Origin: a virus
Virus record (IMG/VR): IMGVR_UViG_3300047388_000156
Location: 1-24,063 of that record
Reading direction: 5' to 3' (one strand)
DNA: 24,063 bases
The translations under genes and the position numbers were made by a program. The notes beneath the pieces were generated by a model. That model did no database searches, was not told the origin of the DNA, and worked only from the letters and a program-made list of their open reading frames with translations. Positions 5,452 through 21,900 of this stretch are shown here, piece after piece. The stretch's first letter is position 1; every line of letters starts with the position of its first letter.

Positions 5452-6012
5452 TCACATCCCCGCCGCTAGCAGAATCCCATGAGGCGGCAACGGCGGACCA
5501 ATCGTAACCGCCAGCATCGAGCCGACCCCATCCATGTGCGCCGCCCCCGAAACAATCCGCGAAACGGCGCCCTTGAAACTGACGGTAGCCACACCGTCCA
5601 TCTCCGCTGCCCCGATGCCGAACCCGCCCGTCACGATGCCGGCAAATGCAACGGTAGCCACACCGTCCATATTGGCGATGCCACTGCCCACGGCCCCACG
5701 GAAGTCGACCGTCGCGAGCCCGTCCATCTGCGCGGCGCCGCGCGACACCAATGTGCCGGTGAAGGCCACAGACGAACTGCCGTCCATCTGCGCTGCGCCT
5801 GAATGAACGATTCCGGTCGTGCCCGTCACCGCGACGTTGGCCTGACCGTCCATCTGCGCCGCCCCCGGCGCAGGGGTGCCTGTTAGTCTGGGGTTGTCCT
5901 CGATCCCGATGTTCGAGAGTGCGCGGGTCCCGAGTTGTGCCGTGTCGTCGACGACCACCACCGAGCCGAGGCCGGGGCGCGAAGCACTCAGGATGGTGTA
6001 TTTGGTGGTCAT
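5452..6012 (-). CDS. Small repeat protein with six 'A-x-MDG' units
   Basis: The protein has about 186 residues from the ATG at 6012, which lies 5 nt after the stop of the third spike gene. A TTG at 6048 would extend it but would overlap the spike gene by 31 nt. The N-terminus (TTKYTILSASRPGLGSVVVV) is followed by six units of roughly 19-27 residues, each with the core G-[AI]-A-x-MDG and most continuing [VL]ATV-x-F-x-G. Evenly spaced short beta-strand units suggest a small repetitive beta structure or a virion decoration, but I do not recognise a named family. The position directly after three spike genes and one base before the Asp-box gene suggests a tail-appendage component. It contains no Cys and has no predicted membrane segment. 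The function is unknown. Confidence 0.6.
   Translation of the reverse strand: MTTKYTILSASRPGLGSVVVVDDTAQLGTRALSNIGIEDNPRLTGTPAPGAAQMDGQANVAVTGTTGIVHSGAAQMDGSSSVAFTGTLVSRGAAQMDGLATVDFRGAVGSGIANMDGVATVAFAGIVTGGFGIGAAEMDGVATVSFKGAVSRIVSGAAHMDGVGSMLAVTIGPPLPPHGILLAAGM
5524..5880 (-). repeat. Degenerate coding repeat array (six MDG units)
   Basis: On the plus strand the motif accgtccat[ct]tgcgc or a close variant recurs near 5534, 5597, 5665, 5730, 5783 and 5850. The spacing is about 53-68 bases. Each occurrence is the complement of the A-x-MDG codons. The units have diverged but remain in frame. Confidence 0.75.
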
Positions 6013-6017
6013 CTGGA

Positions 6018-8129
6018 TCAGGCGATCGTTATCCGTGGGTCGACCCAAGCCGTCGTCAAAACGTGGCCCAGTCGCACCACTCCGCGCACGCGCCCCGCGA
6101 CCCTCGGGGTGAAGGTGACCTGCAGCTTTGTCGGCCCCGCGCTGCGGATGCCCGACGTGAACCCAGCCGGGACGGCCCCGGTAAACGAGCTGCCACCAAA
6201 GTTAGCGGTGCACTGCTCACCCCCAGTGCCAGGGCAGTATAGCGGCAACGTCTGGGAGGGGGCTATAAGAGCGTTTGGACCGCTTGCAAAGGGAACGCCT
6301 CCTGCCCCGGTCGCCGGATTGGCCGTGCTCGAACCGTTCCAGTTTCCGCTCGGGGCGACCCGCCACCAGATCAAGCCGTTTGGAACGTCAACCGCGACGC
6401 CAATCACGTCGCCGCTTGCTCGCGTACCGAGGGAGACGCTGGTGCCCGCTCCGTTGACGGTGGCGAACCCACCGTGAAACAGCACCGCCGACTCCTGCCC
6501 ATCGTTTGCAACTGATGACAAATTGGCCAAACCTGTCGCAATTCCACAGATAGTGGAGATACTGGTCCAAGTCGTCATCTTGTATTCCCAGTACCATTTT
6601 CCGCTGTTGAGCGCTCCCGTCGCTCGTACCCCTCCTATCGAAGAACCCACGCCCGATGCTGTAAGATTATTGGTGCCACCGAGCGACGTGTTGAAGATGT
6701 CAGTCGGACTCCAACTGTAGGCCGGTGAGGCGCTCCAGCTTCCCGTCGAGGTCGACAACGCCGATGGCGTTGGCGGTACCGTTGGGAGACTGCTGGCGAA
6801 GCTCGCGACCGACGATCCGCTCGTGCCTAGGTATTCGAGCAGCAAGCTGATGTCGTCGTTGTTGAGCGGCATCGGCGCTATCATTTCCACTGTCGCCGTC
6901 TTCGATGCGCCGATGCTGGTGTTATCGACATCGAAGGCAAAGGTTGGCAACGGCATGGTGAATTTGTCGGGACCGACGTTCGTTGTCAGCTTTAGAGCAT
7001 AATGGCCGATGTCGTCCTGCGCCCCAGTGGTCATGTATGTGCTGCGATCGGTAACGACGTTGCCGATGGCAATATAGCGCTCGTTGAGGGTATTGGTCCC
7101 GTCCCAGCAGTTGATCAATTCAACTTCGTCGCCTGTGTTGCTACCGGCCGCGGCCGCCGCCATTCGCGTTGCCCCAGGTGCAATCTTGCAGCTCTCGAAT
7201 AGCGCTTTTACCATGACGTTGGAGTTGGTGGTGCCGATCGAGACCAAGGTGCCCGTAATAGCGCTCAGATCGACCCCCCGGCAGGTGATGCTATTGTGGC
7301 CGGAACCAAGGGCGGGCCCAGGAGTAAACAGAGCCGCTGGGTTTATTCCTTGGATTGCGGATGGTGTGTTGATCCAAACCCATTCGCATGGACCGTTACC
7401 GCCGATAGAGTGCCCGCTTGTAGCGAACAGTAATGTCGTGTTGTCGAATACGACACGGGTGCCGATGCTGGTCCCATAGCGACCGCTCGTCGACGAAGAC
7501 ACAAGGTTGAAGGCACAATTTTTGAAGTAGTGACCTTTATCCCCGTTGGACGCAAAGTTGAAGCCCTGCCCACTAGTTGCTCCAGCGGTAAATGTTATTC
7601 CTTGCCAAAATGTGCTCGTGTAACCATCAAGGATTAAAACCCCCTCTGCGGTAATGGCCGCTCCAGACTGAATATCAACAGGAACCGGCGGCACCGATCC
7701 CGCCCGGTTGACCGAGATGATTTGGACAAGGCCGAATGCCTGGGTGTTATTGTTAAATGAATAGATCAAATTTGTCGGTGTAAAATCCTCACTGTGATCG
7801 CTCGACAGAAACACCCGATCACCGACGACAGGACGATTCAACGAACTGGAGATCGCCAACAGTGAACCCGCCGGCGCACTCCAACCGTAAGCCGCTTGCC
7901 CAGTCACGTTTGTGAAGCGTGCCCCCGCGATAACAGACGTTCCATTGTTACTGGAAGACCATGGCGGCTCCGTCGTTCCAGATGTCCCCGCCGTCGTCAC
8001 GCGAAAGGCGTGTTCAACTCCCGCAGCCGGTGCGGTCGGCCGGACGATGTCGCCGACGTTGTAGACAGTGCTCGGCTGCCAGACTGGTAGCGTTGCATAA
8101 ACGGCAGAGGAGACGTACCAATCGGCCAT
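6018..8129 (-). CDS. Tailspike-like protein 3 (beta-helix plus SPRY-like domain)
   Basis: The protein has 703 residues and is the third of three tandem paralogues. It begins MADWYVSSAVYATLP. A small N-terminal module (residues 15-77) carries the Y-x-x-GD-x-V and TTAGTSGTTEPPW pattern seen in phage appendage proteins. Residues 100-460 hold the paralogue-wide blocks DRVFLSSDHSE, VNRAGSVPPV, FWQGITF, YFKNCAF, WINTPSAIQG, CRGVDLSAITG and ELINCWDGTN. This succession of short beta segments with Asn/Cys turns suggests a right-handed beta-helix, as in tailspikes. Residues 472-660 resemble a SPRY/B30.2 domain (SGKWYWEY, SGDVIGVAVD, GLIWWR, NFGGSSF, PAGFTSG). The end (VTFTPRVAGRVRGVVRLG) is common to all three. 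The ATG at 8129 follows the previous TAA by 4 nt. Likely role: receptor binding; enzymatic activity cannot be judged. Confidence 0.7.
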   Translation of the reverse strand: MADWYVSSAVYATLPVWQPSTVYNVGDIVRPTAPAAGVEHAFRVTTAGTSGTTEPPWSSSNNGTSVIAGARFTNVTGQAAYGWSAPAGSLLAISSSLNRPVVGDRVFLSSDHSEDFTPTNLIYSFNNNTQAFGLVQIISVNRAGSVPPVPVDIQSGAAITAEGVLILDGYTSTFWQGITFTAGATSGQGFNFASNGDKGHYFKNCAFNLVSSSTSGRYGTSIGTRVVFDNTTLLFATSGHSIGGNGPCEWVWINTPSAIQGINPAALFTPGPALGSGHNSITCRGVDLSAITGTLVSIGTTNSNVMVKALFESCKIAPGATRMAAAAAGSNTGDEVELINCWDGTNTLNERYIAIGNVVTDRSTYMTTGAQDDIGHYALKLTTNVGPDKFTMPLPTFAFDVDNTSIGASKTATVEMIAPMPLNNDDISLLLEYLGTSGSSVASFASSLPTVPPTPSALSTSTGSWSASPAYSWSPTDIFNTSLGGTNNLTASGVGSSIGGVRATGALNSGKWYWEYKMTTWTSISTICGIATGLANLSSVANDGQESAVLFHGGFATVNGAGTSVSLGTRASGDVIGVAVDVPNGLIWWRVAPSGNWNGSSTANPATGAGGVPFASGPNALIAPSQTLPLYCPGTGGEQCTANFGGSSFTGAVPAGFTSGIRSAGPTKLQVTFTPRVAGRVRGVVRLGHVLTTAWVDPRITIA
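6150..6716 (-). other. SPRY-like domain segment of spike 3
   Basis: This is the coding segment for residues 472-660. It shows the SPRY core order of a KWYWEY strand, GIA, a GDVIGVAVD strand, LIWWR, NG-x-x-x-ANPATG and C-T-x-NFGGSSF. The equivalent position in spike 1 (about 10389) has no such domain. Confidence 0.65.
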
Positions 8130-8133
8130 CTTC

Positions 8134-10236
8134 TTATGTCGCCATCTGTGGGTTGACCCAGACTATGGTGTTGGTCTTGCCAAGCTTGATGAGGCCGCGA
8201 ACACGACCGGCGACGCGCGGGGTGAAGGCAACCTGCAGCTTGGCCGGACCGGGGATTGGTAGACCGGACGTAAAGCCGGATGGAACGCTGCCGACGAAAC
8301 TACTGCCCCCAACATTGATGCTGCATTGATCGCCGGAAGCAGCACCTGCAAACGCAGGGTACAAAGCGCCGAGTAGGCCGCTTATGTTCAAGCCACCCGT
8401 TCCTGTCGCCGGGTTAGCGGTGCTCGAACCATTCCAGTTGCCGGACGGAGCGAGGCGGAACCAGATCAGGCGGCTCCCAATGTCCAGTGCGATGCCGATC
8501 ACATCACCGCTGGCGCGCGCGCCGAGTGAGTTGCCCGTGGAAACGTTGTTGACCCAGATGAGGCCATTTTGCCGAACCAAAGCAGCCTGTGTGGGCGTTG
8601 CGCCGAAGTTTGATAGGATGGCGGATGCCGAGGCGATGCCAGGGGCGGTATTTGCATTGGCCCAGGTCGCCATCGCGCATTCCCAGTAAAACTTACCGGA
8701 AGCGTATGAAACACCCCGCACTCCCCCGCTGCCCGCTGTGCTGGTCGCCGTGAGATTGCCTGCGCTGAGTGTCATGCTGTTGATGTCCGCGGGATTCCAA
8801 CCGCTTCCCGGCGGATTAGCCCATGTCGCAGATGACGAGGTCAGCGTCGACGGCGTCGTCAGCATCGGCGGCAAGCTGCTGGCGAAGCTCGCAACCTGCG
8901 ATCCCGAAGTGCCCATATATTCCAGGAGCAACGAAATCTCGTCGTTGTAGAGCGTGGTCGCAGAAACGATCTCCACTGTCGCAGTCTTCGATGCGCCGAT
9001 GCTGGTGTTCTCGATGTCGAGCCAGAAGCTGTCGAGTGGATAGGCGTACTTGTCGCAACGGGCGCTTGAGGTCAGCTTGAGGCTGAAGTTACTGAGGTCA
9101 TCCTGCGCGCCGAGGCTCTGATAGTTGGTGCGATCCGTGACAACGGACCCCGCTCCCGTATAACGCTCGGTGAGCACATTCGTCCCGTCGAAACAATTGA
9201 TCAGCTCAACCTCGTCGGACACACCATTGCCCGCCGCCGGAGTAGCCAGCCGCACCACATTTGGTGCGAGCTTGCAGCTGTCCAACAGCACCTTGTTCAT
9301 GGCTGAATTTGCCGTTGCCATGCCCAGCAAGGCGCCGGTGATGGCGCTGAGATCGACACCGCGACAGATGATGTTGGTGTGCCCGTTGGTGCTGAAGTTG
9401 AATAGTGCGTTTGGGATGGTCGGGCCCTGGATCGCCGCCGGCGTGTTGATCCAGGTCAAGTCGAGTGACATTATGGCGGTCGAACCGATGTATTGCCCCA
9501 CGTTACCGAATTTCACCGTGGTGTTGTCGAATGTGACCTTGGCAGGATTAGTAGTCGTAAGACGCGCCGCCGCAGATGTCGTGCTGAGCACGAAGGCACA
9601 GTTCTTGAAATAGTGCCCCTTTAAGGTCATAGTGTTTATGTTGCCGGTCACATTAAAATTGAGCGTTGATCCTCCGGTTCCCCCCAATGTAAAGGTGATC
9701 CCTTGCCAATACATATTCACCAGAGCGCCAAATGTTATCGTAAAAGCTGTAAAGGTATTTATTGTAATTGCGGCCCCACTCTGAGCATCGGTACTGACAG
9801 GAGGTACGCTACCAGCCCGATTGACCGAGATCATCTGGATCAACCAGAACCCACGGCTGGCACCAAATGCATAGGTGATGTTGCCGGATGCGTTGTAGGT
9901 CTCGCTGTGATCGCTCGACAAGAACACCCTGTCGTTTGCGATAAGGCGATTACCGATGGCTACCAGCGATCCTGCACATCCGCCCCAGCCATAAGCGGAC
10001 TGACCACTCACGTTGGTGAACGTCGCGCCACCCGACGACACCGTCCCACCGTCGTTGCTCGGCCACGCCGTCGGCTCTGTGCTTGACGTTCCAGCCGTCG
10101 TGCAACGGAAGGTGTACTCCTGACCGGCAGATGGCGCCGTCAGCGGCCGAATGATATTGCCGACGGCATAAAAGTGGCTCGCCGCGAACTGCGGGATCGC
10201 TGCATAGGCTGCCGAGGAAACATACCAATCACTCAA
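8134..10236 (-). CDS. Tailspike-like protein 2 (beta-helix plus SPRY-like domain), TTG start
   Basis: The protein has 700 residues and is the middle member of the spike array. The start is a TTG at 10236-10234. It is supported because the residues that follow (SDWYVSSAAY) line up exactly with the MADWYVSSA starts of both paralogues, and because a GAGGG sits 5 nt upstream. Blocks shared with the other two include FRCTTAGTSSTEP, DRVFLSSDHSE, VNRAGSVPPV, YWQGITF, YFKNCAF, WINTPAAIQG and CRGVDLSAITG. Residues 100-455 are probably a right-handed beta-helix. Residues 476-658 are SPRY-like (SGKFYWEC, GDVIGIALD, LIWFR, SVPSGFTSG), and the end is AFTPRVAGRVRGLIKLGK. By eye it is more than half identical to spike 1 before the SPRY domain. 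The likely role is receptor recognition at the tail tip. Confidence 0.7.
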   Translation of the reverse strand: MSDWYVSSAAYAAIPQFAASHFYAVGNIIRPLTAPSAGQEYTFRCTTAGTSSTEPTAWPSNDGGTVSSGGATFTNVSGQSAYGWGGCAGSLVAIGNRLIANDRVFLSSDHSETYNASGNITYAFGASRGFWLIQMISVNRAGSVPPVSTDAQSGAAITINTFTAFTITFGALVNMYWQGITFTLGGTGGSTLNFNVTGNINTMTLKGHYFKNCAFVLSTTSAAARLTTTNPAKVTFDNTTVKFGNVGQYIGSTAIMSLDLTWINTPAAIQGPTIPNALFNFSTNGHTNIICRGVDLSAITGALLGMATANSAMNKVLLDSCKLAPNVVRLATPAAGNGVSDEVELINCFDGTNVLTERYTGAGSVVTDRTNYQSLGAQDDLSNFSLKLTSSARCDKYAYPLDSFWLDIENTSIGASKTATVEIVSATTLYNDEISLLLEYMGTSGSQVASFASSLPPMLTTPSTLTSSSATWANPPGSGWNPADINSMTLSAGNLTATSTAGSGGVRGVSYASGKFYWECAMATWANANTAPGIASASAILSNFGATPTQAALVRQNGLIWVNNVSTGNSLGARASGDVIGIALDIGSRLIWFRLAPSGNWNGSSTANPATGTGGLNISGLLGALYPAFAGAASGDQCSINVGGSSFVGSVPSGFTSGLPIPGPAKLQVAFTPRVAGRVRGLIKLGKTNTIVWVNPQMAT
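8263..8811 (-). other. SPRY-like domain segment of spike 2
   Basis: This is the coding segment for residues 476-658 of spike 2. It is homologous to the SPRY-like part of spike 3, sharing YWE, ARASGDVIG, LIW, APSGNWNGSSTANPATG and PSGFTSG or close variants. It starts just after the NPP residues that align with NSPP in spike 1, where the domain is absent. Confidence 0.65.
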
Positions 10237-10241
10237 GGATG

Positions 10242-10246
10242 CCCTC
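10242..10246 (-). promoter_or_regulatory. Shine-Dalgarno (GAGGG) supporting the TTG start of spike 2
   Basis: On the minus strand GAGGG is followed by five bases and then the TTG at 10236. No ATG or GTG near this point is compatible with the paralogue alignment. Confidence 0.6.
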
Positions 10247-10259
10247 GCTCAAGGTTGAG

Positions 10260-11816
10260 CTAATTGATCGCGATCTGCGGATTGACCCAGACTGTGCTGC
10301 TTACCTTGCCGAGCCTGACCAGTCCGCGCACGCGACCTGCCCGCTGTGGCGTAAAGGTGGCTTGAAGTAATTGTTTCTGCGGCGTCGAGGGCGGACTGTT
10401 CCATGTGTTCGAGGACGACGGCAGCGCTGAGGCCGCTGTCAGCACGCTCGCCAGAGTGTCGCCGAAGCTGGCTATCGGGTTGCCCGACGTGCCCATGTAT
10501 TCGAGCAGCAACCTGATGTCGTTGTTGTTGAGCGTGCCGGACGAGATGACCTCTATGGTGGCGGTCTTGGACGCGCCCGTCACGGCGTTTTCCACATCAA
10601 ATGCGAAGCAATCTAGCGGGAAGGTCGCAAAGTCGCTGCGCGAACTCGATACCAGCTTGAGGCTGTAACCGCCGAGGTCGTCCACCGCGCCGCCCGTCAA
10701 ATAAGTGCTGCGTTCTGTGGTAATATCCCCAGCGGCCGTGTGGCGTTCGTTGATGACGTTGGTGCCGTCGTAGCAGTTGACCAATTCGATCTCGTCGGCT
10801 GCACTATTAGAGCCAATCGGCGTTGCCATGCGTGTTACACCGGATGCAATCTTGCAACTATCTAGCAGCACCTTCATGGTTGATGTGCTGTTGGCCTGAA
10901 TGGCTGCGAGAGTTCCGGTAACAGCGCTCAAATCAACGCCTCGACATGTGATCATGCTCGGCTGAGTGGTGCCATTAGCGTTAAACAAGTTAGTCGGAAT
11001 TATTGCCCCTTGGATCGCTGCCGGCGTGTTGATCCACGTCAATTCAAAGTTTCCTGCTACCCCACAGCCTAGATATTGTCCGACCGAAGAGAATTGGACC
11101 GTGGTGTTATCGAAAACGACCTTTCCTCCGGTGTGACCAATGTTTGAAGGTGACGATGTCGCCCCTAGCACGAGAGCGCAGTTTTTAAAGTAGTGCGAAT
11201 GTGCCGCAGTACCAGAAAACCTAATGGTCGCACTCGTGGTCGTGCCTGATATCGTAAACGTGATGCCTTGCCAGAACATGTTGCAATATGGCTCAAGGAT
11301 CAACGCCTGATTGGACGTTGCAGCACACGTAATCGCCGCCCCGCTCGTAAGATCAGCCGCGACCGGTGGCACCGACCCCGCCCGGTTGACCGAAAGCACC
11401 TGGATGCATCCAAAACCAGCAACCCCGCCATTGAACCCATACGTCATACTGCCTACACCTGCCGCGCTCTCACTGTGATCGCTCGACAGAAACACCCGAT
11501 CGCCGACGACAGGACGATTCCACCCAGCCGCCTGTGAGATGCTGTATAGGTCACCAGCCGGGGCGTTCCAGTTGTACGTGGACTGCCCCGTGACGTTGGT
11601 GAAGGTCGCGCCGCCGGTCGTAATCGTGCCGTTATTCGCGGTGGGCCACGTCGGTTCCGTGCTCGAGGTGCCCGCCGTCGTGCAGCGAAACACGTGCGCC
11701 TTGCCGAGCGCAGGAGCCGTCAGCGGCCGAACGATGTCGCCGACGCTATAAGCGTGGCTCGCCGCGAACTGCGGGATCGCTGTCCAAGCTGCGGACGAAA
11801 CGTACCAATCGGCCAT
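10260..11816 (-). CDS. Tailspike-like protein 1 (beta-helix, no SPRY domain)
   Basis: The protein has 518 residues and is the first and shortest of three tandem paralogues. The N-terminal module (residues 15-77) has Y-x-VGDIV and FRCTTAGTSSTEPTW. Residues 100-455 carry the same beta-helix-like blocks as its neighbours (DRVFLSSDHSE, VNRAGSVPPV, FWQGITF, YFKNCAL, WINTPAAIQG, CRGVDLSAVTG, ELVNCYDGTN). At residue 476 (NSPP) it jumps directly to STPQKQLLQATFTPQRAGRV, skipping the SPRY-like domain of about 185 residues. It ends in the common C-terminal motif (AGRVRGLVRLGK, then VWVNPQI). The ATG at 11816 lies 7 nt after the upstream TGA, with a weak Shine-Dalgarno. The likely role is receptor binding or a polysaccharide-active spike. 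No catalytic residues can be assigned. Confidence 0.7.
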   Translation of the reverse strand: MADWYVSSAAWTAIPQFAASHAYSVGDIVRPLTAPALGKAHVFRCTTAGTSSTEPTWPTANNGTITTGGATFTNVTGQSTYNWNAPAGDLYSISQAAGWNRPVVGDRVFLSSDHSESAAGVGSMTYGFNGGVAGFGCIQVLSVNRAGSVPPVAADLTSGAAITCAATSNQALILEPYCNMFWQGITFTISGTTTSATIRFSGTAAHSHYFKNCALVLGATSSPSNIGHTGGKVVFDNTTVQFSSVGQYLGCGVAGNFELTWINTPAAIQGAIIPTNLFNANGTTQPSMITCRGVDLSAVTGTLAAIQANSTSTMKVLLDSCKIASGVTRMATPIGSNSAADEIELVNCYDGTNVINERHTAAGDITTERSTYLTGGAVDDLGGYSLKLVSSSRSDFATFPLDCFAFDVENAVTGASKTATIEVISSGTLNNNDIRLLLEYMGTSGNPIASFGDTLASVLTAASALPSSSNTWNSPPSTPQKQLLQATFTPQRAGRVRGLVRLGKVSSTVWVNPQIAIN

Positions 11817-11823
11817 CGGGCGA

Positions 11824-12258
11824 TCAGCTTTCTGTTAATGCCGTCCCCGTTGTCAGCTGCGGCGACACGCCGGTACTTACTGAGAGGTTGGGGGTGATCG
11901 GCCCGCGATAGAGGATTTTCCCCGCCCCCGTCAGCGCCGTGCCGACCGCCGCCCAGGTCTCCGTCTCCGAGCCAGCCGTCGCCGCCGGGAAAATCACCGA
12001 CGTAGTCAAGGTCGCCGTCGCGCCTGACACCGTGAACCCGGTCGAGCTTCGCGCCACCGCCTGCCTGGCGTAACCCGTATAGGCCGCCTCGTTAGTGTTC
12101 TGGCCGCCGCCCGCGCCTGGATCGGCGGTGTGCAGCGAGAGATATAGGCTGGTCAACGGCCCAGACGCCGCGTTGTCCGCTATGTTGGGAATCGGCGTGC
12201 CGTTTAGGATGAGCTTGAGTAAGTCATTATCAAATGATGACCCCTTACCTCCTGCCAC
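11824..12258 (-). CDS. Small phage tail-fibre-family protein
   Basis: The protein has 144 residues. It carries SLYLSLHTADPGAGGGQNTN (about 38-57) then AAYTGYARQAVARS, followed by FPAATAGSETETWAAVG and ILYRGPITPNLSVSTGVSP. This LHTADPG ... YTGYAR layout matches a small protein family often annotated as phage tail fibre or minor structural protein and found next to fibre or spike genes. The precise role in the family is not known to me. The start is GTG at 12258, strongly supported by AGGAGG five bases upstream. That site overlaps the TAG stop of the HNH gene (TAGGAGG). It sits immediately upstream of the first spike, so it may be a spike adaptor or assembly factor (inference). Confidence 0.72.
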   Translation of the reverse strand: MAGGKGSSFDNDLLKLILNGTPIPNIADNAASGPLTSLYLSLHTADPGAGGGQNTNEAAYTGYARQAVARSSTGFTVSGATATLTTSVIFPAATAGSETETWAAVGTALTGAGKILYRGPITPNLSVSTGVSPQLTTGTALTES

Positions 12259-12263
12259 AGTAG

Positions 12264-12269
12264 CCTCCT
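12264..12269 (-). promoter_or_regulatory. Strong Shine-Dalgarno (AGGAGG) for the GTG start at 12258
   Basis: AGGAGG lies five bases before the GTG and shares bases with the TAG stop of the preceding HNH gene. This decides a non-ATG start. Confidence 0.75.
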
Positions 12270-12786
12270 ATGTCTGGATGTGATTGGTGCGAGCGAAGGC
12301 GCCCCAATACTTCAGCGCAGCCGCGTCGTATGCTCTAGCCGCCTCTTGCGCAGTGCTGAAAAGGCCAAGGTAAATATATCGTCCTTGGAACTTCAACGCC
12401 GCTTCGTACTTCCTACGAAGTTTGCGCCATCTGACGCCTTTGAAGCCGGTGGTGGAGTTGAGTGGCCTTTTGCTGTTTGCTCTATTCTGGCTACGGGTCG
12501 CCGCGCGGAGATTTGCCTGTTGCGCATTGAATCTGTCGCGGTCGATGTGGTCCCACTCTTTTGAAACGGGCAATCCTGCCAATCGAGCCACGTCTGCGTG
12601 AAGATAAATGTTTTGCCCCGGCCACTCGCAGCGCTTCGGGTAGCCGTTGTGAAGGGTCCAAGTGAACTTGGACAGGTAGTCGTAAAACTCGTCGTCCACC
12701 TGAGCATGCGCAATGGTGTCATATCGCAGAGAATGCGGCCACTGCCTGCTTTCGCCTGTCCACTTCATGATTGGAAGTAGCTTCAT
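12268..12786 (-). CDS. HNH endonuclease with C-terminal AP2 DNA-binding domain
   Basis: The protein has 172 residues. EWDHIDRDRFNAQQANLRAA (about 77-96) followed by RSQNRANSKR is the HNH nuclease signature, with His80 and the downstream Asn residues as likely metal and catalytic ligands. Residues 112-168 (TGFKGVRWRKLRRKYEAAL, then LGLFSTAQEAARAYDAAALK and GAFARTN) form an AP2-like DNA-binding domain. This is the standard architecture of free-standing phage homing-type endonucleases, which nick or cut DNA at target sites and promote their own spread. The ATG at 12786 overlaps the fibre gene stop as ATGA and has AGGA upstream; Met7 (12768) is an alternative start. The gene sits between two structural genes and is the only clearly non-structural insertion in the tail-tip part of the window. 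No intron boundaries are visible, because both flanking genes appear intact. Confidence 0.9.
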   Translation of the reverse strand: MKLLPIMKWTGESRQWPHSLRYDTIAHAQVDDEFYDYLSKFTWTLHNGYPKRCEWPGQNIYLHADVARLAGLPVSKEWDHIDRDRFNAQQANLRAATRSQNRANSKRPLNSTTGFKGVRWRKLRRKYEAALKFQGRYIYLGLFSTAQEAARAYDAAALKYWGAFARTNHIQT

Positions 12787-13889
12787 CGGAAATCCTGTCC
12801 GGCGATATTGGCATAGATCGTCGTCCCGCCATCAAAACTAACCAAAATGTAGATGTCCTTTCCGTTCGGCGTCATCGTTGGCGCAATGCCGCTCGGCCAC
12901 AGCACACCGTTCGGGAAGGCCAGCCCGAAGCTTCCGGAGTTCTGCACCTCGAGCACAAGCCGCGCGAATTGCCCGCCGGGCGGCCATCCTATGATGTTGG
13001 TGATGGTTACAGTGCTGCTGAGCGCCAGCCGCTGCACTTCACCGGCCGACCGATCCAAAGTGAGCGATCCGGAAACCACATTGATGCCACCACAAGGCAT
13101 GTCGACCGTGACAGCATCGACCCAGTTGGTCCCGTCGAAGATCAGCGGCTGGCCGGCTACCGGTGTGGACAGATTCACATCGGTAAGTCCGCTCAACGCC
13201 ACGCTGATCGCTTTGTTGATCCAATCAGTAGCGCTGGCGTTATAGGTGAGCACATCGCCATCGGCGGGGCCGGTGATGGCGACGTCGGTTAGATTGTCTA
13301 GCGCCAGCGGCGGCGCCGGCAGATTTTGCCAGTGCCCACTTTCATAACTTAGAATGTCTCCGTTTGTCGGTGACGCGATCGCAACATCCGTCATCTCGGT
13401 GATTGCTGCGGTCGTCCAATGGACGGCATAATCCGCCGAGGTCGATTTGCGCAGGAACCAGCCGGCCGGGCCGCCAGATGGGAGGGTCGCCGCCGCGCTC
13501 TTGAGCAGCACGCCATAATAGTCGTTGCCCATCCCGTCATTGGCGCCAGCATCGAACGTCGCGTTGCTGACGTGATTGATCTCGACCATGTAGGTCGCGC
13601 CGACAGAGGTGATGATGTCGCCTGCGTAATATTGGGTATTTGGCGCCCATTCGCCCTTGAACTGGATCGTCATCATCGGTATGTCGTACGGACCAAGCAA
13701 CGTATGGTCGGTCAGAACGACCGTGAATTGATTGCCGTGCACCACAATGTTGGCGATGCCAACGCCCTGCACCGCCTTCGCCTGATTATCCTGAATGGCC
13801 TGCCAGAAATTATTGTCGACCTGCTCAGGGGTCAGGTCTTGGTTGTTGCCGATGCCCCATGGTCCAGATGTTCTAAACGTGTATCCCAT
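12783..13889 (-). CDS. Tail fibre-like protein with three 'LTDV' repeats
   Basis: The protein has 368 residues. The N-terminus (PWGIGNNQDLTPEQVDNNFW) looks like a docking region found at the start of many fibre proteins. Residues 76-115 (FKGEWAPNTQYYAGDIITSV, then GATYMV) resemble a small carbohydrate-binding or fibre-linker module with the W-x-x-x-x-x-Y-x-x-GD pattern. Residues 165-260 hold three units of the type [ML]TDV-x-[IL]-x-x-P-x-x-G-x-x-L with W near the end, a common shaft repeat in phage fibres. The C-terminus (WPPGGQFARLVLEV, then NGVLWPSG and IYANIAGQDF) is likely a globular tip. The ATG at 13889 has AGGAGAGGG just upstream, overlapping the TAG of the preceding gene. It acts in the virion at the tail tip or baseplate, and the stop is coupled to the HNH gene by ATGA. 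Confidence 0.72.
   Translation of the reverse strand: MGYTFRTSGPWGIGNNQDLTPEQVDNNFWQAIQDNQAKAVQGVGIANIVVHGNQFTVVLTDHTLLGPYDIPMMTIQFKGEWAPNTQYYAGDIITSVGATYMVEINHVSNATFDAGANDGMGNDYYGVLLKSAAATLPSGGPAGWFLRKSTSADYAVHWTTAAITEMTDVAIASPTNGDILSYESGHWQNLPAPPLALDNLTDVAITGPADGDVLTYNASATDWINKAISVALSGLTDVNLSTPVAGQPLIFDGTNWVDAVTVDMPCGGINVVSGSLTLDRSAGEVQRLALSSTVTITNIIGWPPGGQFARLVLEVQNSGSFGLAFPNGVLWPSGIAPTMTPNGKDIYILVSFDGGTTIYANIAGQDFR
13110..13397 (-). repeat. Three-unit fibre-shaft repeat
   Basis: The units encode MTDVAIASPTNGDILSY, LTDVAITGPADGDVLTY and LTDVNLSTPVAGQPLIF, each followed by a Trp 5-8 residues later. The spacing is about 35 residues. Units 1 and 2 are the most similar. Confidence 0.75.
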
Positions 13890-13898
13890 GGCCCTCTC

Positions 13899-14171
13899 CT
13901 AGCCCTCTAACCGTCGCCGCCTGCTGGCGCCCAAAAGGCCAGCACTATCCCCCTGGCGGCTCTCCACCGAGGCCTGGGCGCAATAGCTCGTGATGGTCTC
14001 GTCGAAGTGGGCTTGACCGGTCAAGATCGGCGGCAATTGACCAGCGCCGGAGCTGCCGAACCCCGGTGTGATCGAGATCGGTAGATTGCTCGTGAGCGGC
14101 TGATTGGTCCGCTCGCCAGGCGCAGTGTCGGGGAGCTGGTACGGCCTTACAACGTCATCAATCCCCGGCAT
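13899..14171 (-). CDS. 90-residue protein made mostly of the shared appendage module
   Basis: Residues 17-67 (APGERTNQPLTSNLPISITP through TSYCAQA) are nearly identical to the N-terminus of the 730-residue Asp-box protein at 3258-5450. Even the preceding residues are alike (DDVVRPYQLPDT versus DAVRAYELPQK). After the module it has only an unrelated 23-residue tail ending RRRRLEG. Its ATG at 14171 overlaps the end of the hub gene by 14 nt, with AAGGA about 10 nt upstream. The copy could be a stand-alone docking or assembly protein, or a truncated relic of an appendage that lost its C-terminal part. The intact frame and its place between hub and fibre favour a functional gene, but weakly. I do not recognise the module as a named family. 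Confidence 0.62.
   Translation of the reverse strand: MPGIDDVVRPYQLPDTAPGERTNQPLTSNLPISITPGFGSSGAGQLPPILTGQAHFDETITSYCAQASVESRQGDSAGLLGASRRRRLEG
13971..14123 (-). repeat. Copy A of the 153-bp dispersed repeat (other copy 5247-5399)
   Basis: This is a direct repeat about 8.7 kb from its partner. It aligns without gaps, is about 90% identical by eye, and is coding in the same frame in both copies. Confidence 0.9.
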
Positions 14172-17100
14172 AGCGCAACAATCCTTCCGGAGCTGGAGAG
14201 GCGGCGGACAGATCGATCGTCATCGGGATCTGCAACTTCGTGGTCTGCACGACATACGAATTAGAGAATGGTCCGTTGGTGACCGGTTTCAGCGTCAATT
14301 CGTACCACAAACCTTCGCCCTGCATGATGCTTTTTAAGATCATTGTCTGAATTTGGGTCTGAAGCTGGATCATTGGACTTGGAGGATTGGTGATCGTCCA
14401 GTTGCCAATATAAGTCTTCTGCCCCTGAGCTACGGCCTCCGCGACGACTTCAGCGATTTGCAAATTATAAATTGCAAGGTTGTTCTTGTTCAGCGTCGAA
14501 GGAATCCCGTGCCATTGATTGGCCAGGATCACTTCGCTAGGGCCGAGCGGGAATCCGAGGCCATCATCGTTGGCGTGGCCGAATGGCGGCGTGTAGCCGA
14601 TTTCGTTGCCGGCAGGATCATCGATCGGCGGCGTCCAGTACGAATCGAGCGCTGGGCACGTTTCTGGCGGAAGCGTTGGAGGAACCGATGGCGTCTCGAA
14701 CGTCGGCACATCGAACGACACCCCCTGAACCGGAAGCGTGTCAGGAGGCGCTCCGCTCATGCTGCTGTAATACTTTTGGTATCCACGCTGCACGTAACCT
14801 TCGTTCACATAGGATGGCGTACCGGGATCAGTCGCTACTCCCCTCGTCGCCTTCCTGCTCCCCGAGCTTGGCAAAAGGCCGAGACATGGATTGAACATCA
14901 TCGAGGACGTGACCCACCCCTTGCCACTTTGCCCGCCATGCGCCGCGTTAGTGAACGTCGCGCCCGAACTCTCTCCCGCCGTTGGCTTCTGCCACCACTC
15001 CGTACAAACGCCGACCAATCCTGCCTCGTCATTGAACAGGCCTGGCTCAAAATGAGTGCCCGGAACGGTCCCGCCAAGATTGCTGAGGCCGCCGGTCTTG
15101 TTGATCGCGAAGGTGACGCCCCAGGTAAGAGCGCCATCCACTGGCGAAACGGCGCCCGCAACAATGGCGTCATTGGCGCCGCCGGGGCTCATCTGGGCGT
15201 TGGACCCAACCCCAACCACGTTGTTGATGTCTTTGCCGCTTATGGCCAGCGAATTGCTGGCATTGAACTCCTCGATTATCAGCGACACCCACGTATGGGC
15301 AGTGGGGAAATGTGCGGTAAAAACCTGCGGAAGATTGCTGATATTGCTATGGGAAAATACCCATATTCCAAATTTTGAAACAGGATCGACGAGGACATCG
15401 TGGTTGGCATAAGTGTTGCCCTTGTCGTCAGTGATCCACGGAGAGCTGTCGGCAGGCGCTCCCTGTGCCGTCACGGCCATGCAGAGCAGGTCTTGCTGCC
15501 CTACCGGGTTGGTCAGAATGACCTGGACGTGATCGACTGAGACCGGACCGGAGAGATAAGCCCCACCCTGGACCAGACGAAACGGCAATGGCTGCGGCGT
15601 CGGCGCCGGGCCCCCAGCCCGCTCGTTGCCGATGCTGCATCCCAAGGTGACGCTGCCCTTCACCTGGCCGGTATCGCCCTGGACCTCCAACTTGTAGCCA
15701 ATCACTTTGCCCTGTGCGGTGCCCCCAGGTAATCGGGCGTCGTTGACGTTTCCGTTCATTCGACAGGACAGTTGGGCCGCCACCTCGAAGCGTGTATCGA
15801 ACGAGACATCGACGGCCCGCGCCCGCTTCCGTAGCTTGGCCCGCGCCCGGCATATCATGTTCTCGATGGACTGCTTGCCGCGATCAGATGGAAAGAATGT
15901 CGCATTAGGGGTATGCCCAGGCCAGCCGCCGACTGGCACCTTCGCCAAGCCGATGCATTGCCAGGTCACCGACCCGTCGCCCGTCTGTGCCCCCTTGGCC
16001 TCTGCAAACGTCGGGTGCCATTCATCCGTCTGCCCCGCCTTGATGCAGATATACTGGTAAGATCCGGTCGGATTTGAGAACTCGCGGAATTCCGCTGGTG
16101 GTGCCTCACTCAGCCCTCCGACCATGCCGGCCACTGTGCATTCCTTGATCGTGTCGCCGGGGCCGCCCCAGCCCATGCAGTACATGCTATGCTTTGCCAC
16201 GGCGACACCCATTGGCGGAAAGCTGAGGTTTCCTGGCGCCAGCAAAGCCTCCCAATTTGGGACACCGGAAACAGGCTTCGGGCAGATGATCGTGCCGAGG
16301 CCTACGTTCGCCATCCGCACCTGGTCCTGCGCTTGCTCCGTCGGCGGAGTATCTCCCAGGCTGGCCCAAACCACTGTGCCGTCCGTCGTGGTGTGGCCGG
16401 CGATGTTCGAGAATACCGGTTCCTGCATCCCGGTGGTGCCGGCAGTGAGGCATACCTGCGAGGAGGTCTGCCCAGGCACCAGGGGATTGTCAGGATAGAT
16501 GAATTGGCCGACATCGACGAACCGGCCTTCTCCCACAGTGTCCCAGTTCTCCAAGTCAATAAGCGGAAGTGACAAATCTCCGCTCTTGAGCGTGATCGTC
16601 TCGGTGTCCTCGGTCACCAATGGATCAATCAAGATCGGCTGAATCTCAGCCTGGACGGTCATCTCCGCCCGCTCGGATCGTTTGCGATCCGCGTTGTAGA
16701 CAAGGCTAATTACCGCAAGCGATTGCTTGCCTGCAAAGTCGAGCGCGAAAGCCTCGTAGCAAAACCACTGCCTAGAAACTGACGCCGGGATGTTGATTGG
16801 CGCCGGGTCGCCGTTCAGGTCTACCGCATACTCGTCGATGAATCCGGTTTGAGTATGTTCGGCAATCATAACGGCCTGGCCGAATGGCGGCACATAGCTA
16901 AGCTCGACCGACATCGTATCGCCGGTCGCATGCTCCTTTTCACCGTTCTGCCAATGGAACTGCCATTCCCCTTGCGCTGGCTTCATTGGGAATATCAATG
17001 GGTCTCGCTCGCCAGCCCACGAAACCCCGGCATACCAGCCACCGCCGAGCGAGCTGCCGCTCTTGGGCCAGTCACCAACGAAGGCGTCCGATCCCAACGT

Positions 17101-18480
17101 CGGGAACGCCCATTTCCCCAGCTCGCCACCCGCCGGGAGCGCTCCCTTGAACTGCTGATTCCAACTCACCTCCGCCTTGACGTTCACCGCGACCAATGGT
17201 GACTGGAGCAATTTGCATTGAACGCTGTCATAAAACACCTCGCTGTCGGCGAACCAGAGAATCCCATCCTCGCCGGTCAGAATATCGCTTGCGGTGACTT
17301 GGCCACTGACACGATCAACATGATAGAGAACCGACCAGCCCTCCAGGATCGCATCAGGATCGTCTCGCTTCAAAATCTCTATGAATAGCGGATCGTAATT
17401 CGGCGGTTTCTTCAGCGTCTCCGCCACCTGTTGTTTCTGGTAGATGTAATCGGGAAGCCGCGCGATCAGCTTCATCTTCACGGTGTTGGATTCAATCCGC
17501 TCAGGCACGCCAACCAGGCGCCCGAAGAATAGCGGTTGCGGTGGGCAAGCCTCGTACCCAAACGAAATCCACGCCCAATAGAGCCGCCCTGGCGCAATGA
17601 AGCCAACCCTCGGATTCTTGATCTCGATCGTGGCTGTCGGAATCTGACCTTCGTCATGCTCGATCACGAGATCGAATATGTTCTCGTCGAAGCGGGCGAG
17701 CGACAGGTCCCAAGGGGTGCCTTGCGACACCCAGGCGAAATAGAAAGTATACTCGCGGCCCTCGATGGAGGCGGGACCGCCACCAGTCGACGGCACATCC
17801 GTCGTCTTCAGCGACAGACCGGCGGTGATAAAAACCCGGGTCGTGCCCTCGATGCCGAATATGTTGTCGTTGCTGAATGTCGCCTCGCCGAACGGCGCTA
17901 TGCTGTACTTGAACTCGGTGGTGAACGCGCCGACGACGTTGTCATGCGCCCCGATCCTGAAGCTGGTGCCCGGATTGGTGCTGCCCACGGCGCCGTAGTA
18001 CCAGCACGCGCCCCAGATCAGATCGCTCCGAAACGGCGTTGAAAACTGACCGGAGGTGATGGCGTTGAGGCTCGTATCCGCCTGCGGCTGCAAGCTGATC
18101 TTGTGGCCTTCAAGCGCGTCCTCTGGGACAATCCCAGAATATTCCTCGGCGAGAATGATATATCCAATATGGTCGCCGCTGGTGCTCGTCAGCGTGAGCG
18201 TTTGCGGCCCGTTGGTGATGCCTTCGAGGTAGAAGATTCGAAAGGTCCAATACGGATCGCCTAACGCATCAACAAATTTGTAATTATTCCCTTTATCGTC
18301 CGTGATGATGCAGTCGTATAAATAACCCGTGTCTGTAGCGGACGCTTGCGAAAATTGGACGGCAATGACGACGGCACCGCCATCCGCGACAGGCGCGTCG
18401 AGCGTGACCGACCAACCCGGGAGGTAAGTGGCGTCGGTCGGTCCCTGCGAGAACTTGCCTTGAATAAGACGAGGAGGCAA
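14158..18480 (-). CDS. Giant baseplate-hub-like tail protein with duplicated beta domain
   Basis: The protein has about 1440 residues from the TTG at 18480; a GTG at 18510 would add 10. TTG is preferred because GGAGGAG lies 8 nt upstream and the start falls just after the previous stop. Numbered from the GTG, residues 13-235 form a beta-rich domain containing IITDDKGNNYKF and GYIILAEEYSG. Residues 255-650 (WDLSLARFDENIFDLVIEHD, RLYWAWISFGYE, MKLIARLPDYIYQKQ) and about 880-960 (AQGKVIGYKLEVQGDTG) resemble tail-hub proteins. Two small modules with the C-[LI]-x-AG-x-T ... TDG or GDG ... VxW pattern lie at about 685-720 and 820-856. Residues 970-1205 repeat the first domain (WITDDKGNTYAN, WVSLIIEEFNA). 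The hub assignment also rests on position after the tape measure. It probably closes the tail tube and carries the appendages. Confidence 0.62.
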   Translation of the reverse strand: MPPRLIQGKFSQGPTDATYLPGWSVTLDAPVADGGAVVIAVQFSQASATDTGYLYDCIITDDKGNNYKFVDALGDPYWTFRIFYLEGITNGPQTLTLTSTSGDHIGYIILAEEYSGIVPEDALEGHKISLQPQADTSLNAITSGQFSTPFRSDLIWGACWYYGAVGSTNPGTSFRIGAHDNVVGAFTTEFKYSIAPFGEATFSNDNIFGIEGTTRVFITAGLSLKTTDVPSTGGGPASIEGREYTFYFAWVSQGTPWDLSLARFDENIFDLVIEHDEGQIPTATIEIKNPRVGFIAPGRLYWAWISFGYEACPPQPLFFGRLVGVPERIESNTVKMKLIARLPDYIYQKQQVAETLKKPPNYDPLFIEILKRDDPDAILEGWSVLYHVDRVSGQVTASDILTGEDGILWFADSEVFYDSVQCKLLQSPLVAVNVKAEVSWNQQFKGALPAGGELGKWAFPTLGSDAFVGDWPKSGSSLGGGWYAGVSWAGERDPLIFPMKPAQGEWQFHWQNGEKEHATGDTMSVELSYVPPFGQAVMIAEHTQTGFIDEYAVDLNGDPAPINIPASVSRQWFCYEAFALDFAGKQSLAVISLVYNADRKRSERAEMTVQAEIQPILIDPLVTEDTETITLKSGDLSLPLIDLENWDTVGEGRFVDVGQFIYPDNPLVPGQTSSQVCLTAGTTGMQEPVFSNIAGHTTTDGTVVWASLGDTPPTEQAQDQVRMANVGLGTIICPKPVSGVPNWEALLAPGNLSFPPMGVAVAKHSMYCMGWGGPGDTIKECTVAGMVGGLSEAPPAEFREFSNPTGSYQYICIKAGQTDEWHPTFAEAKGAQTGDGSVTWQCIGLAKVPVGGWPGHTPNATFFPSDRGKQSIENMICRARAKLRKRARAVDVSFDTRFEVAAQLSCRMNGNVNDARLPGGTAQGKVIGYKLEVQGDTGQVKGSVTLGCSIGNERAGGPAPTPQPLPFRLVQGGAYLSGPVSVDHVQVILTNPVGQQDLLCMAVTAQGAPADSSPWITDDKGNTYANHDVLVDPVSKFGIWVFSHSNISNLPQVFTAHFPTAHTWVSLIIEEFNASNSLAISGKDINNVVGVGSNAQMSPGGANDAIVAGAVSPVDGALTWGVTFAINKTGGLSNLGGTVPGTHFEPGLFNDEAGLVGVCTEWWQKPTAGESSGATFTNAAHGGQSGKGWVTSSMMFNPCLGLLPSSGSRKATRGVATDPGTPSYVNEGYVQRGYQKYYSSMSGAPPDTLPVQGVSFDVPTFETPSVPPTLPPETCPALDSYWTPPIDDPAGNEIGYTPPFGHANDDGLGFPLGPSEVILANQWHGIPSTLNKNNLAIYNLQIAEVVAEAVAQGQKTYIGNWTITNPPSPMIQLQTQIQTMILKSIMQGEGLWYELTLKPVTNGPFSNSYVVQTTKLQIPMTIDLSAASPAPEGLLRYAGD

Positions 18481-18482
18481 AA

Positions 18483-18971
18483 CTAAATCTCCTCCAACGC
18501 GACTTGCCACTCGTTAATCGCAGCCCACTCGGCAAAACTATTCTTGATCTCGGTGACCATCATCAGAAGGAGTGGTCTGTAAAACGTCACATCCCCTTCT
18601 GTCCGCATTGATCCCGGCACCACTCGCCGAGCTGGCACCGCACCAAGAAGATAACTGAACTCGAAAGCACAGCTGACCTCAGCGACATGGCCGATCCAGG
18701 CGTCGTCGAGGCACGGGGCCGCGCCATCGCGACAAGTGATGGTCGATTTGTATTTACGGAAGCGCGTGTCGGCGAGGCTGCGCAGGGTGCCATTCACGTC
18801 TCGCCTTAGCCAATTCCCGCCACCGCCCCCCGTTCCCGTAAGCGGCTCGTATGTCTGCGTGAGCCCGCGCGCCGAGTATGGCGAAAGCTGCAAGCCGGTG
18901 TCACCCGACAATGGCGTCAGAACCAGCAGCGTGCCTTCAGGGAGCCACAGCATCACAATAGACCCGACCAT
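18483..18971 (-). CDS. Conserved small tail protein between tape measure and hub
   Basis: The protein has 162 residues from the ATG at 18971, four bases after the tape-measure TAG. A longer frame starting at 19169 would overlap the tape measure by about 190 nt and its extra N-terminus is Arg/Pro-rich shadow sequence, so I reject it. The text LSPYSARGLTQTYEPLTG, LRRDVNGTLRSLADTRFRKY, STITCRDGAAPCLDDAWIGH and FYRPLLLMMVTEI reads like the short proteins that sit between tape measure and hub in other phages. These are often left as hypothetical or treated as distal-tail/tail-tip proteins. The two Cys (in TCRDG and APCLD) frame a short loop. No Zn motif or signal peptide is visible. It likely helps join the tail tube to the hub, a role inferred from position. 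Its end carries the Shine-Dalgarno for the hub gene. Confidence 0.62.
   Translation of the reverse strand: MVGSIVMLWLPEGTLLVLTPLSGDTGLQLSPYSARGLTQTYEPLTGTGGGGGNWLRRDVNGTLRSLADTRFRKYKSTITCRDGAAPCLDDAWIGHVAEVSCAFEFSYLLGAVPARRVVPGSMRTEGDVTFYRPLLLMMVTEIKNSFAEWAAINEWQVALEEI
18489..18495 (-). promoter_or_regulatory. Shine-Dalgarno (GGAGGAG) favouring the TTG start at 18480
   Basis: GGAGGAG ends 8 nt before the TTG. It lies inside the end of the upstream gene, whose TAG stop (18485-18483) falls between the Shine-Dalgarno and the start. The rival GTG at 18510 lacks a comparable site. Confidence 0.6.
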
Positions 18972-18975
18972 CCAA

Positions 18976-21900
18976 CTATGAGAACCACGAAGGTCTCTCG
19001 CCTGTTCGCGAGAGTTTACCGGCAAGAGCCGAAGATCGAAGCGCCTCCATCGTATCCTGGGCCACGGACACTCGGAAATTCCCCTTGTCCGTTCGGAGAT
19101 CGAGCTGGTGGTAGCTGGTGTTGGCCTTGCCGCCGGCGCCGGCGGCGGATACTCGTCCGCCTTCCGCATATCCGCGAATGCTGTCGGTGAAGGCGCCGAC
19201 TATGCCACCGTTCGCGAAGTGTTTGGTAAAATGGTCGATCGCCTCGTGCAAGTTGCTGCCGTCCGCCCGGACGATGTATTCGCCCTTCGAAACCCAGGCG
19301 AGATTGCTGTCGCTCGTGCCGCTGCCGTGGCCACCAACCTCGCCGCCTTCCGCCATACCCCCCACTGGCTTGCCAGTATATTTGGCGGCGGCGGCGAGGT
19401 AAGCTGCTTCTGTGCCAAACGGGTCGCACGGCCTATTTACTATCACCCACTTATCACTGCCGGGGAATTGCGGCTCCCAGAATGGCTGTCCCGTCCCCGG
19501 CATGCAGCGGCCGCCGCGGTCCTCGCCAAAGTGCTGCGCCTTGGCCCGGGCAGCCAAGCCGGGGTCCTTCGTTATGAGGCCGGGTGATTTTGATAGGTCT
19601 TTGAATGGATCCCCTATCGGGCCGCTGGGCGGCGGGAATTTGATCGGGGTCGGCTGCGGCGCCGTAATAATCTTCGGACCGGATGTTTTCGTCTGACAGA
19701 TCGGATTGGTTGGGTCTGCCCCGCAGCCGATCCAGTCGCTAGACTGGTCGCCAACCGGGCCGCCATCTGCGAATCCAGATGGGCCGCTGGCCACAGGTGG
19801 GTCGGCCTTGATTATCTTCGCTCCCAAATCTTGGTGCTGTTCATCCTCTCGGCGCCGCTGCTGTTCCTCCTCTCGACGCCGCCGCTCCTCCTCCTCACGT
19901 TGTCGCTTCAGCTCATTGTCATCGCCGCCAACCGGGCCGCCTTCCGCATACCCAGGATACACAATGGCTTCCGGCGGAGGAGGAGGCGGAGGCGGAGGTT
20001 GGTCCTGTGGATAGCTGATAGGAATTTGCAGCCCGCTGTCGTCACGCGGCCGCGGCGGGGCCGGACGCGGAAGCGGCGGCGTCTCAGGGAATGGTGGCGT
20101 ATTTAGCCCGGACGGAGCACCGGGTGGAAACGTGAAAGCTCCTCTGTAAGCATTCCGTTGTTGTTCGGTCCACGGCGTCCACCGATATTGATTTGTCGTT
20201 GGGTCTATCACCCAATTCCCCTCGCCGCCGCTCAGCTCGTCCGGCGGCGTGACGCCAGGATGTCGTCTAGACCACTCCTTCCAATGGGCTGGGTCAGACC
20301 CGGTGCGAGGCTTCCGAACCGGCTCCCGCTGCTGCTGCTGCTCCTTTTCCTGCTGCTTCTGATATTCTTCCCACGCCCTCCGTCGGCGCTCCTCGAAGTT
20401 ATCGGTTTGCGGTTCCTTTGGCTGTGGCTGGACCTTCTCCCGCGTCGTCTCTTCTGGACCTCGCGGCATAGGGGGCACCGGCCCTGGCGCTTCAGGCGGC
20501 CTGGACTGATCCTTATCCTTCCGCTTCGTCGTATCGATCGTGACCGGCGTCGCCTCTGGCGGCCGCGGCCTGGGCAACGGGATATCAGGCGGTGCCGATG
20601 GCGGCTCTCCGTGCGGGCTTTCAAGCTGTTTCAGCCACCACGGCAGATCGCGCTTTGAGCCACCGCCGGGCACTCGCTGGCCGGGCTCCGTAGGCACATT
20701 CGGCGCGGGCGGCTCCGTCTTTGGCGGTTCGGGCTTTGGCGGTTCCGTCTTTGGCGGTTCCGTCTTTGGCGGTTGCCGCTCCTTCTGCCGCTCCTGCTCG
20801 AGCTCCTTCTCGCGACGTTGACGTTCCTGCTCCCTCTTTGGATTTAGTCCACCGCCTTTCCGCTCCTCCTCACGCTCCTTCTTCATCCGCTCTTCATTCT
20901 CTTTGCGCCGTTGCTCCGGCGTCTTCTCCGACTCTGGAACACGTTGCGGCTTCACCGGCTCAAGGGTCGGCGGCAGCGGCACCTCCGGCCCTTCCGGCTT
21001 AGGCGGCTCTCCGCGCAGCTTTCTCAGATCGTTGGCTGTCGGCAGTCCGCGACCGCCCTGCCGATGAAAATCCTCGATCTCCTTGTCGCTGGGCGGCGAC
21101 ATGCCTGGCCACATCTTGTTCATTTGGTCCGGCGACATGGAGCCGGTGTCTAGTGGCGTGCTCCCTTCGCCGCCTTTGGGGACGGTTCCGTCACCCCCAC
21201 CCCCAGTCCCAGGAGGGATCGGCGCAGGAGGCGAGGGAGGGGTTGGCGGCGGCGTCGCAGGTGGCGTGGGTGCAGGTGATGGCGTGGGCGTAGGCGCTGG
21301 TGGCGTGGGTGCAGGTGATGGCGTGGGCGTAGGCGTGGGCGTAGGCGCTGGTGGCGTGGGCGTAGGCGCAGGCGACGGGGAAGGGGCGGGGGCAGGCGTA
21401 GGTACCGGTGCCGGAGTAGGAGCAGAGCGGCCAGGGCCGGGACCAGGAGCGGGGCCAGGAGCGGGTCCAGGGGGAGTTACGATCAACGGTCCGCCTGAAC
21501 CGCGCGGAAAAGTCCTGCTGCCAGGTGTAAATGGGGCGCCGCCCGGAGGCGTAATGGCGGTGGGCCCGGCGGGGGGCTGCTTCGGCCCGCCCTCCTCGCC
21601 CCCAATCTCTTCCGCCTTCTTCTTCGCCTTCGCGCCGTCTTCAGGAATGTTGCCGAGCGCTGCGATCAGCTTCTTGATGGCCGCGGCCAGCTCGTCCATC
21701 GCCGAGGCGACATTTCTGGTCGGCCCCGGGACGTCGCCAAGCCCGCCAGCCGCCTGGGTCGCCGCTTCGCCGGCATCCTTCAGGCCAGACGACGCGGTAT
21801 CCGCCGACGAGCCGGTCTTCTGCAAGCCTGCCTCGGCCGCATTCGCCGGGGTGACGAAGGCCTTCAGCGCTTCGGTAACGCTGGCGATCGCGCCGGCTTG

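Follow-up and report, generated by a model that had tools for sequence, protein, structure and literature searches.

The hosts that a phage can infect are determined by its receptor-binding proteins, each of which normally carries an N-terminal anchor that restricts it to a single virion type. A 24,063-nt stretch of DNA from an uncultured tailed phage (IMG/VR record IMGVR_UViG_3300047388_000156, positions 1 to 24,063; hereafter, the window) contains three spike paralogs, all on the minus strand and in tandem, within a tail gene cluster, and raises the question of how such an array is maintained, held on the virion, and varied. The reading that we favor, with a probability of roughly 0.6, is that the array encodes diversified beta-helix tail spikes that would be anchored by a separate short module, denoted SRAG, and would carry SPRY domains as plug-in modules. 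The genes of the array and the domains inserted in them are as follows:

Positions 6018..8129, minus strand: spike copy 1, 703 aa, complete ORF; core plus SPRY insert
Positions 6147..6713, minus strand: copy 1 SPRY domain (residues ~473-661), which shares 49% identity with its copy 2 counterpart
Positions 8134..10236, minus strand: spike copy 2, 700 aa, complete ORF with a TTG start; core plus SPRY insert
Positions 8257..8805, minus strand: copy 2 SPRY domain (residues ~478-660), inside a loop of the C-terminal domain
Positions 10260..11816, minus strand: spike copy 3, 518 aa, complete ORF; beta-helix core plus C-terminal beta-sandwich, without SPRY

The sequence-only reading of this locus had judged, by eye, that the three proteins are more than half identical in their shared part, have a common start and end, and are all intact and too diverged for an artifact, and each of these points holds. 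Pairwise identity over the shared part is 54-55%, with a common start (M[AS]DWYVSS) and a common end (FTPxxAGRVRGxxxLGxxxxxWVxP) in the protein alignment; by segment, identity is 61-71% over the first 85 alignment columns, 54-55% within the helix, and 54-61% beyond it, and at the DNA level the copies appear as families of diverged direct repeats, mostly 60-78% identical. The Nei-Gojobori estimates per segment (dN 0.2-0.5, dS ~0.8-3) indicate that the copies are neither an assembly artifact nor decaying. With synonymous sites saturated and the proteins constrained, all three look maintained and, judged by these substitution patterns, are old copies under purifying selection. An assembly artifact or a recent duplication is ruled out by the saturated synonymous sites and by five other contigs that also have arrays, with two or three copies each. 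The intergenic gaps are only 4-23 nt long, and promoters and terminators show no excess over chance in the array region, so the three genes look like one operon, which is entered from a Gp80-like gene and followed by the gene at 5452-6012.

The spike family was found in ~45 distinct IMG/VR contigs with one to three copies each: the window, L009, and L033 have three, L029, L047, and L032 (where the second is divergent) have two, and the others have one, although contig ends may hide copies. Neither 50,697 phage records nor 84,980 prokaryote species genomes, the latter covered by two GTDB scans, yielded a relative of the spike core, and these scans revealed no host of the spike phages; among cultured phages, the matches, for example in Burkholderia phage AH2, are to the SPRY part only. 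In the core tree, copy 3 is closest to spikes of single-copy phages (65% identical to that of L031), and monophyly of the three window spikes is not rejected (AU p 0.51; p 0.85 for L033); duplication within one lineage and recruitment would both be compatible with the tree and the AU test. The divergent spikes of L075 (8001-9758) and L069 (7870-9591) have a ~60-aa N-terminal module, TTAGTS, that is repeated at the C-terminus and is also present in the 1450-aa ORF of the window.

The AlphaFold model of copy 3 (57-row alignment; pLDDT 92.8, pTM 0.90) has a core predicted to be a right-handed parallel beta-helix, which matches phage tailspikes and pectic lyases with Z 10-16; a search of solved structures by sequence yielded nothing relevant for the core. 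The rescored Foldseek matches to residues 1-390 include a rhamnogalacturonan lyase (Z 16.3) and the tailspikes K2-2 TSP (14.4), CBA120 TSP4 (13.8), Sf6 (12.8), HK620 (11.7), and P22 (10.7), with tailspike matches to the core overall at Z 10.2-14.4 over 220-290 residues, and residues 354-518 match an alginate-binding module at a borderline Z of 8.8. The suggestion that these proteins are tailspike-like is borne out by the predicted beta-helix and by the place of the genes in the tail cluster, downstream of the tape measure gene, with hub and fiber genes also upstream. A fold unrelated to tailspikes, named beforehand as grounds for abandoning this suggestion, was looked for in the predicted model and did not occur. 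The tailspike reading of the three proteins is thus well supported by predicted fold and gene context. In the favored reading, the spikes are probably trimeric and would bind, and perhaps cleave, host surface polysaccharide, their fold neighbors being lyases and tailspike depolymerases.

The chain itself starts unusually. In the copy 3 model, the beta-helix begins at residue 1, with no separate virion-anchoring domain at the N-terminus, and this residue aligns past the N-terminal anchors of known spikes (HK620 residue 188, Sf6 192, P22 122). The candidate anchor is encoded in the adjacent gene:

Positions 5452..6012, minus strand: adaptor gene, N-terminal SRAG followed by six ~20-aa GAAQMDGxATVxFxG repeats
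Positions 5902..6012, minus strand: SRAG module, MTTKYTILSASRPGLGSVVVVDDTAQLGTRALSNIGI; proposed spike-docking peptide (HMM E 2e-12)

The adaptor, whose start codon is 5 nt from the stop of copy 1 and whose repeats are visible in the DNA, lies just outside the interval given in the sequence-only reading (6018-11816), and neither SRAG nor the missing anchor figured in that reading. SRAG is ~36 aa long, with the consensus LSASRAGxGSVxxTD / TxxLSASRAGxGSVVxT. When adjacency was defined as a start between -40 and +120 nt from the last spike stop (the offsets seen were 0 to +30), SRAG directly followed the last spike in 26 of the 43 distinct testable contigs, or 26/35 without the divergent spike clade (L066-L080), which shows no SRAG; this count is partly primed because the seven SRAG seeds were picked from genes beside spikes or fused to a spike. 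Five more contigs (L029, L032, L040, L043, and L065) have SRAG just upstream of or between spike copies. A less primed result came from scanning 2.9 million viral contigs for SRAG only: 38 pattern matches included 17 confirmed loci, all on spike-bearing contigs, 15 with a spike in the fetched stretch and two (L106 and L107) from contigs already known to bear spikes.

The proteins that carry SRAG are diverse. Fusions were found to PF10076 Phage_Mu_Gp48, a baseplate protein (L005, E 2.9e-22), PF09343 DUF2460 (L016 and L111), PF13550 Phage-tail_3 (L029), a homolog of the hub protein of the window (L045), Laminin_G_3 (L040), SPRY proteins, and the spike itself (L009), and SRAG is nearly stand-alone, as a ~50-aa peptide, in L034, L035, L042, and L106. 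Given the co-occurrence with spikes and the fusions with tail proteins, a spike-docking module appears to be the best reading of SRAG, which could instead be an assembly factor. More tentatively, at slightly less than even odds, SRAG may be a portable docking tag, such that any carrier, be it Mu Gp48, DUF2460, Phage-tail_3, a lectin protein, or the stand-alone peptide, would hold anchorless spikes, and unrelated baseplates would exchange spikes freely. The possibility that SRAG mimics the spike strand SVNRAGSVPP was considered and is not supported (hhalign probability 0.6%; reversed or shuffled spikes match equally well).

The remainder of the tail cluster, upstream of the array, includes the following genes:

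Positions 11824..12258, minus strand: Gp80-like homolog of podophage GP4 fiber I (PF23140, E 1.4e-15; 8jou chain a, E 1e-5)
Positions 12783..13889, minus strand: tail fiber-like protein, 368 aa (PHROG tail fiber matches)
Positions 14158..18510, minus strand: probable tail hub, a large protein of 1450 aa; the L045 homolog has an N-terminal SRAG
Positions 18483..19169, minus strand: small tail protein of 228 aa, encoded between the tape measure and hub genes; kept in related contigs
Positions 18976..24063, minus strand: tape measure protein, running off the end of the window; matches several PHROG families of tape measure proteins (best 9e-9)

The order tape measure, hub, fiber, and spike recurs in L024, L048, L051, and L063, and the Gp80-like gene, which scores 58.2 bits against the 27-bit gathering cutoff of PF23140, the family of GP4 fiber I gp80, adjoins the spikes in the window, as it does in about ten related contigs. 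Unlike in the window, the Gp80 homologs of the four GenBank phages checked have no adjacent beta-helix spike of the window family; the spike-like neighbors of Gp80 homologs in cultured phages were considered as relatives and are not homologous to the window spikes. Several other features of the region were observed. The tape measure protein (18976-24063) has a very long Pro/Lys/Glu-rich low-complexity middle, and the tail cluster also includes a homing-type endonuclease gene with HNH and AP2 domains (12268-12786), which immediately precedes the Gp80-like gene. Two direct copies of a 187-nt sequence, 83% identical (5247-5433 versus 13971-14157), flank the whole fiber and spike region and make the N-terminus of a 730-aa ORF (3258-5450) a copy of a stand-alone 90-aa ORF (13899-14171). 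A 1004-aa ORF (247-3261) matches a PHROG of unknown function at its N-terminus, a methyltransferase in its middle and, weakly, a sialyltransferase family at its C-terminus.

The SPRY domains of copies 1 and 2 are ~180 aa each and are lacking in copy 3. The copy 2 insert is recognizable as SPRY/B30.2 by both fold and sequence profile: in the predicted model (pLDDT 78.7 for the spike), it matches animal SPRY domains with Z up to 21.7 (SPRY7, 7ccb; 159 residues, 1.8 A), and its sequence matches phrog_10080 (E 2e-13) and Pfam SPRY (E 0.0039). The Pfam matches of the window domains (E 0.003-0.004) are below the gathering cutoff, with values down to 2.3e-6 for other members of the family. Of the 54 scored spike cores, 15 contain SPRY, a distribution that requires at least 10 gains or losses on the core tree; in L033 and L039, it occupies a different site, with two SPRY domains in L039, and genes for stand-alone SPRY proteins neighbor the spikes in L028, L043, L065, and L057. 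The second and third spikes of L033 (8136-13366) have long C-terminal extensions, that of copy 3 resembling, by eye, a concanavalin-type lectin. SPRY proteins are known in phages (PMC7824862); those of the window differ from known SPRY/B30.2 domains in being inserted in a loop of a beta-helix spike and in being missing from one of three paralogs.

Three other explanations of the array have to be weighed. The sequence-only reading had offered, as one option, a hetero-oligomeric spike, in which the paralogs would co-assemble as mixed trimers or a branched complex and not as separate homotrimers. The single operon with 4-23-nt spacing and no internal excess of promoters or terminators is in line with this option, 54-55% full-length similarity would permit shared interfaces, and Ackermannviridae are known to assemble several tailspikes into branched complexes (PMC11414711); however, most related contigs have a single copy, so a spike needs no partner paralog, and we consider mixed assembly unlikely. 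Slightly less likely again is that the proteins are head or collar fibers and not tail-tip spikes. Such a location stays a rival because Gp80 relatives bear the annotation "head protein" in Lacusarx and, in vB_CbaS-RXM, have portal and capsid genes as neighbors, and it would agree with the match of the N-terminal TTAGTS module to a PHROG called head decoration and with the presence of phrog_26502, which is filed under head, in the adaptor C-termini of L036, L037, and L039. It is opposed by the placement of the spikes among tape measure or hub and tail fiber genes in the window, L024, L045, L048, L051, and L063, by the SRAG fusions to Mu Gp48, DUF2460, and Phage-tail_3, and by the naming of GP4 gp80 itself as a tail fiber protein.

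The least probable alternative, in our estimate, is that the extra copies form a recombination reservoir for antigenic-type variation, with one spike displayed at a time: each copy is intact with its own start, all belong to one operon, and all are under purifying selection. Synonymous codon sharing among the window copies (0.43-0.49) is not above that for homologs in different phages (0.33-0.51). What speaks for a reservoir is that copies 2 and 3 (residues 13-31, 15/15, p 0.001) and copies 1 and 3 (residues 98-112, p 0.027) have the same synonymous codons over short stretches, but one pair from different phages also reaches p 0.001, and gene conversion between the window copies is therefore suggestive only.

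Diversified tail spikes with a separate SRAG anchor and SPRY plug-ins remain the best explanation, based on the intact paralogs, predicted folds, purifying selection, place in the tail cluster, co-occurrence and fusions of SRAG, and turnover of SPRY. Known systems offer precedents by analogy for parts of the proposed mechanism, namely the short peptide of KP32, the RcGTA spike with no classical anchor, and the tailspike clusters of Ackermannviridae. In the latter (CBA120, Kuttervirus), the TSP1-4 genes, likewise several beta-helix tailspike genes side by side, exchange modules (PMC11414711, PMC8432352), and CBA120 TSP4 is among the predicted fold matches given above. Ackermannviridae TSPs have common N-terminal attachment domains and different receptor-binding parts, whereas the window spikes have no N-terminal anchor, are alignable over their full length at ~55% with divergence spread along the chains, vary via loop-inserted or C-terminal modules, and lack cultured relatives in the phage records searched. 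Klebsiella phage KP32 carries two spikes per virion, RBP1 and RBP2, with C-terminal carbohydrate modules and a short conserved attachment peptide (PMC13082707); that peptide is on the spike and docks on RBP1, whereas here the short module is on a separate tail protein. RcGTA TspA is a trimeric tailspike of a gene transfer agent without a canonical phage anchor whose contacts are with the tail tube, the distal tail protein, and the megatron (PMC13420450); it has its own N-terminal beta-sandwich, whereas here the adjacent SRAG is the candidate anchor.

Under the proposed mechanism, the spike body, a right-handed beta-helix with a C-terminal beta-sandwich that is probably a trimer, would bind and perhaps cleave host surface polysaccharide, and the SPRY domain in the C-terminal loop of two copies would serve as a plug-in binding module. 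The anchorless spikes would probably be held at the tail tip by the SRAG module with which the adjacent gene begins, SRAG being carried by whatever tail protein the phage has, as baseplate, distal tail, or hub fusions, and the spike copies would diverge, with C-terminal binding modules added or lost. Trimerization, binding of SRAG to the spikes, receptor binding, and incorporation of all three spikes are steps that we infer. With anchor and spike separate, spikes could be duplicated, diverged, and swapped, giving several specificities per virion or lineage. Several receptor specificities, the other option raised by the sequence-only reading, are plausible and would fit the variable copy number and the gained and lost SPRY and lectin modules.

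Because the spike family is absent from the searched collections of cultured-phage and bacterial genomes, it is currently invisible to laboratory work. If the reading is correct, anchorless spikes, a separate SRAG on unrelated tail proteins, and a loop site for SPRY would amount to a plug-and-socket system for swapping specificity and, if SRAG docking is real, a phage could vary its binding without rebuilding the tail.
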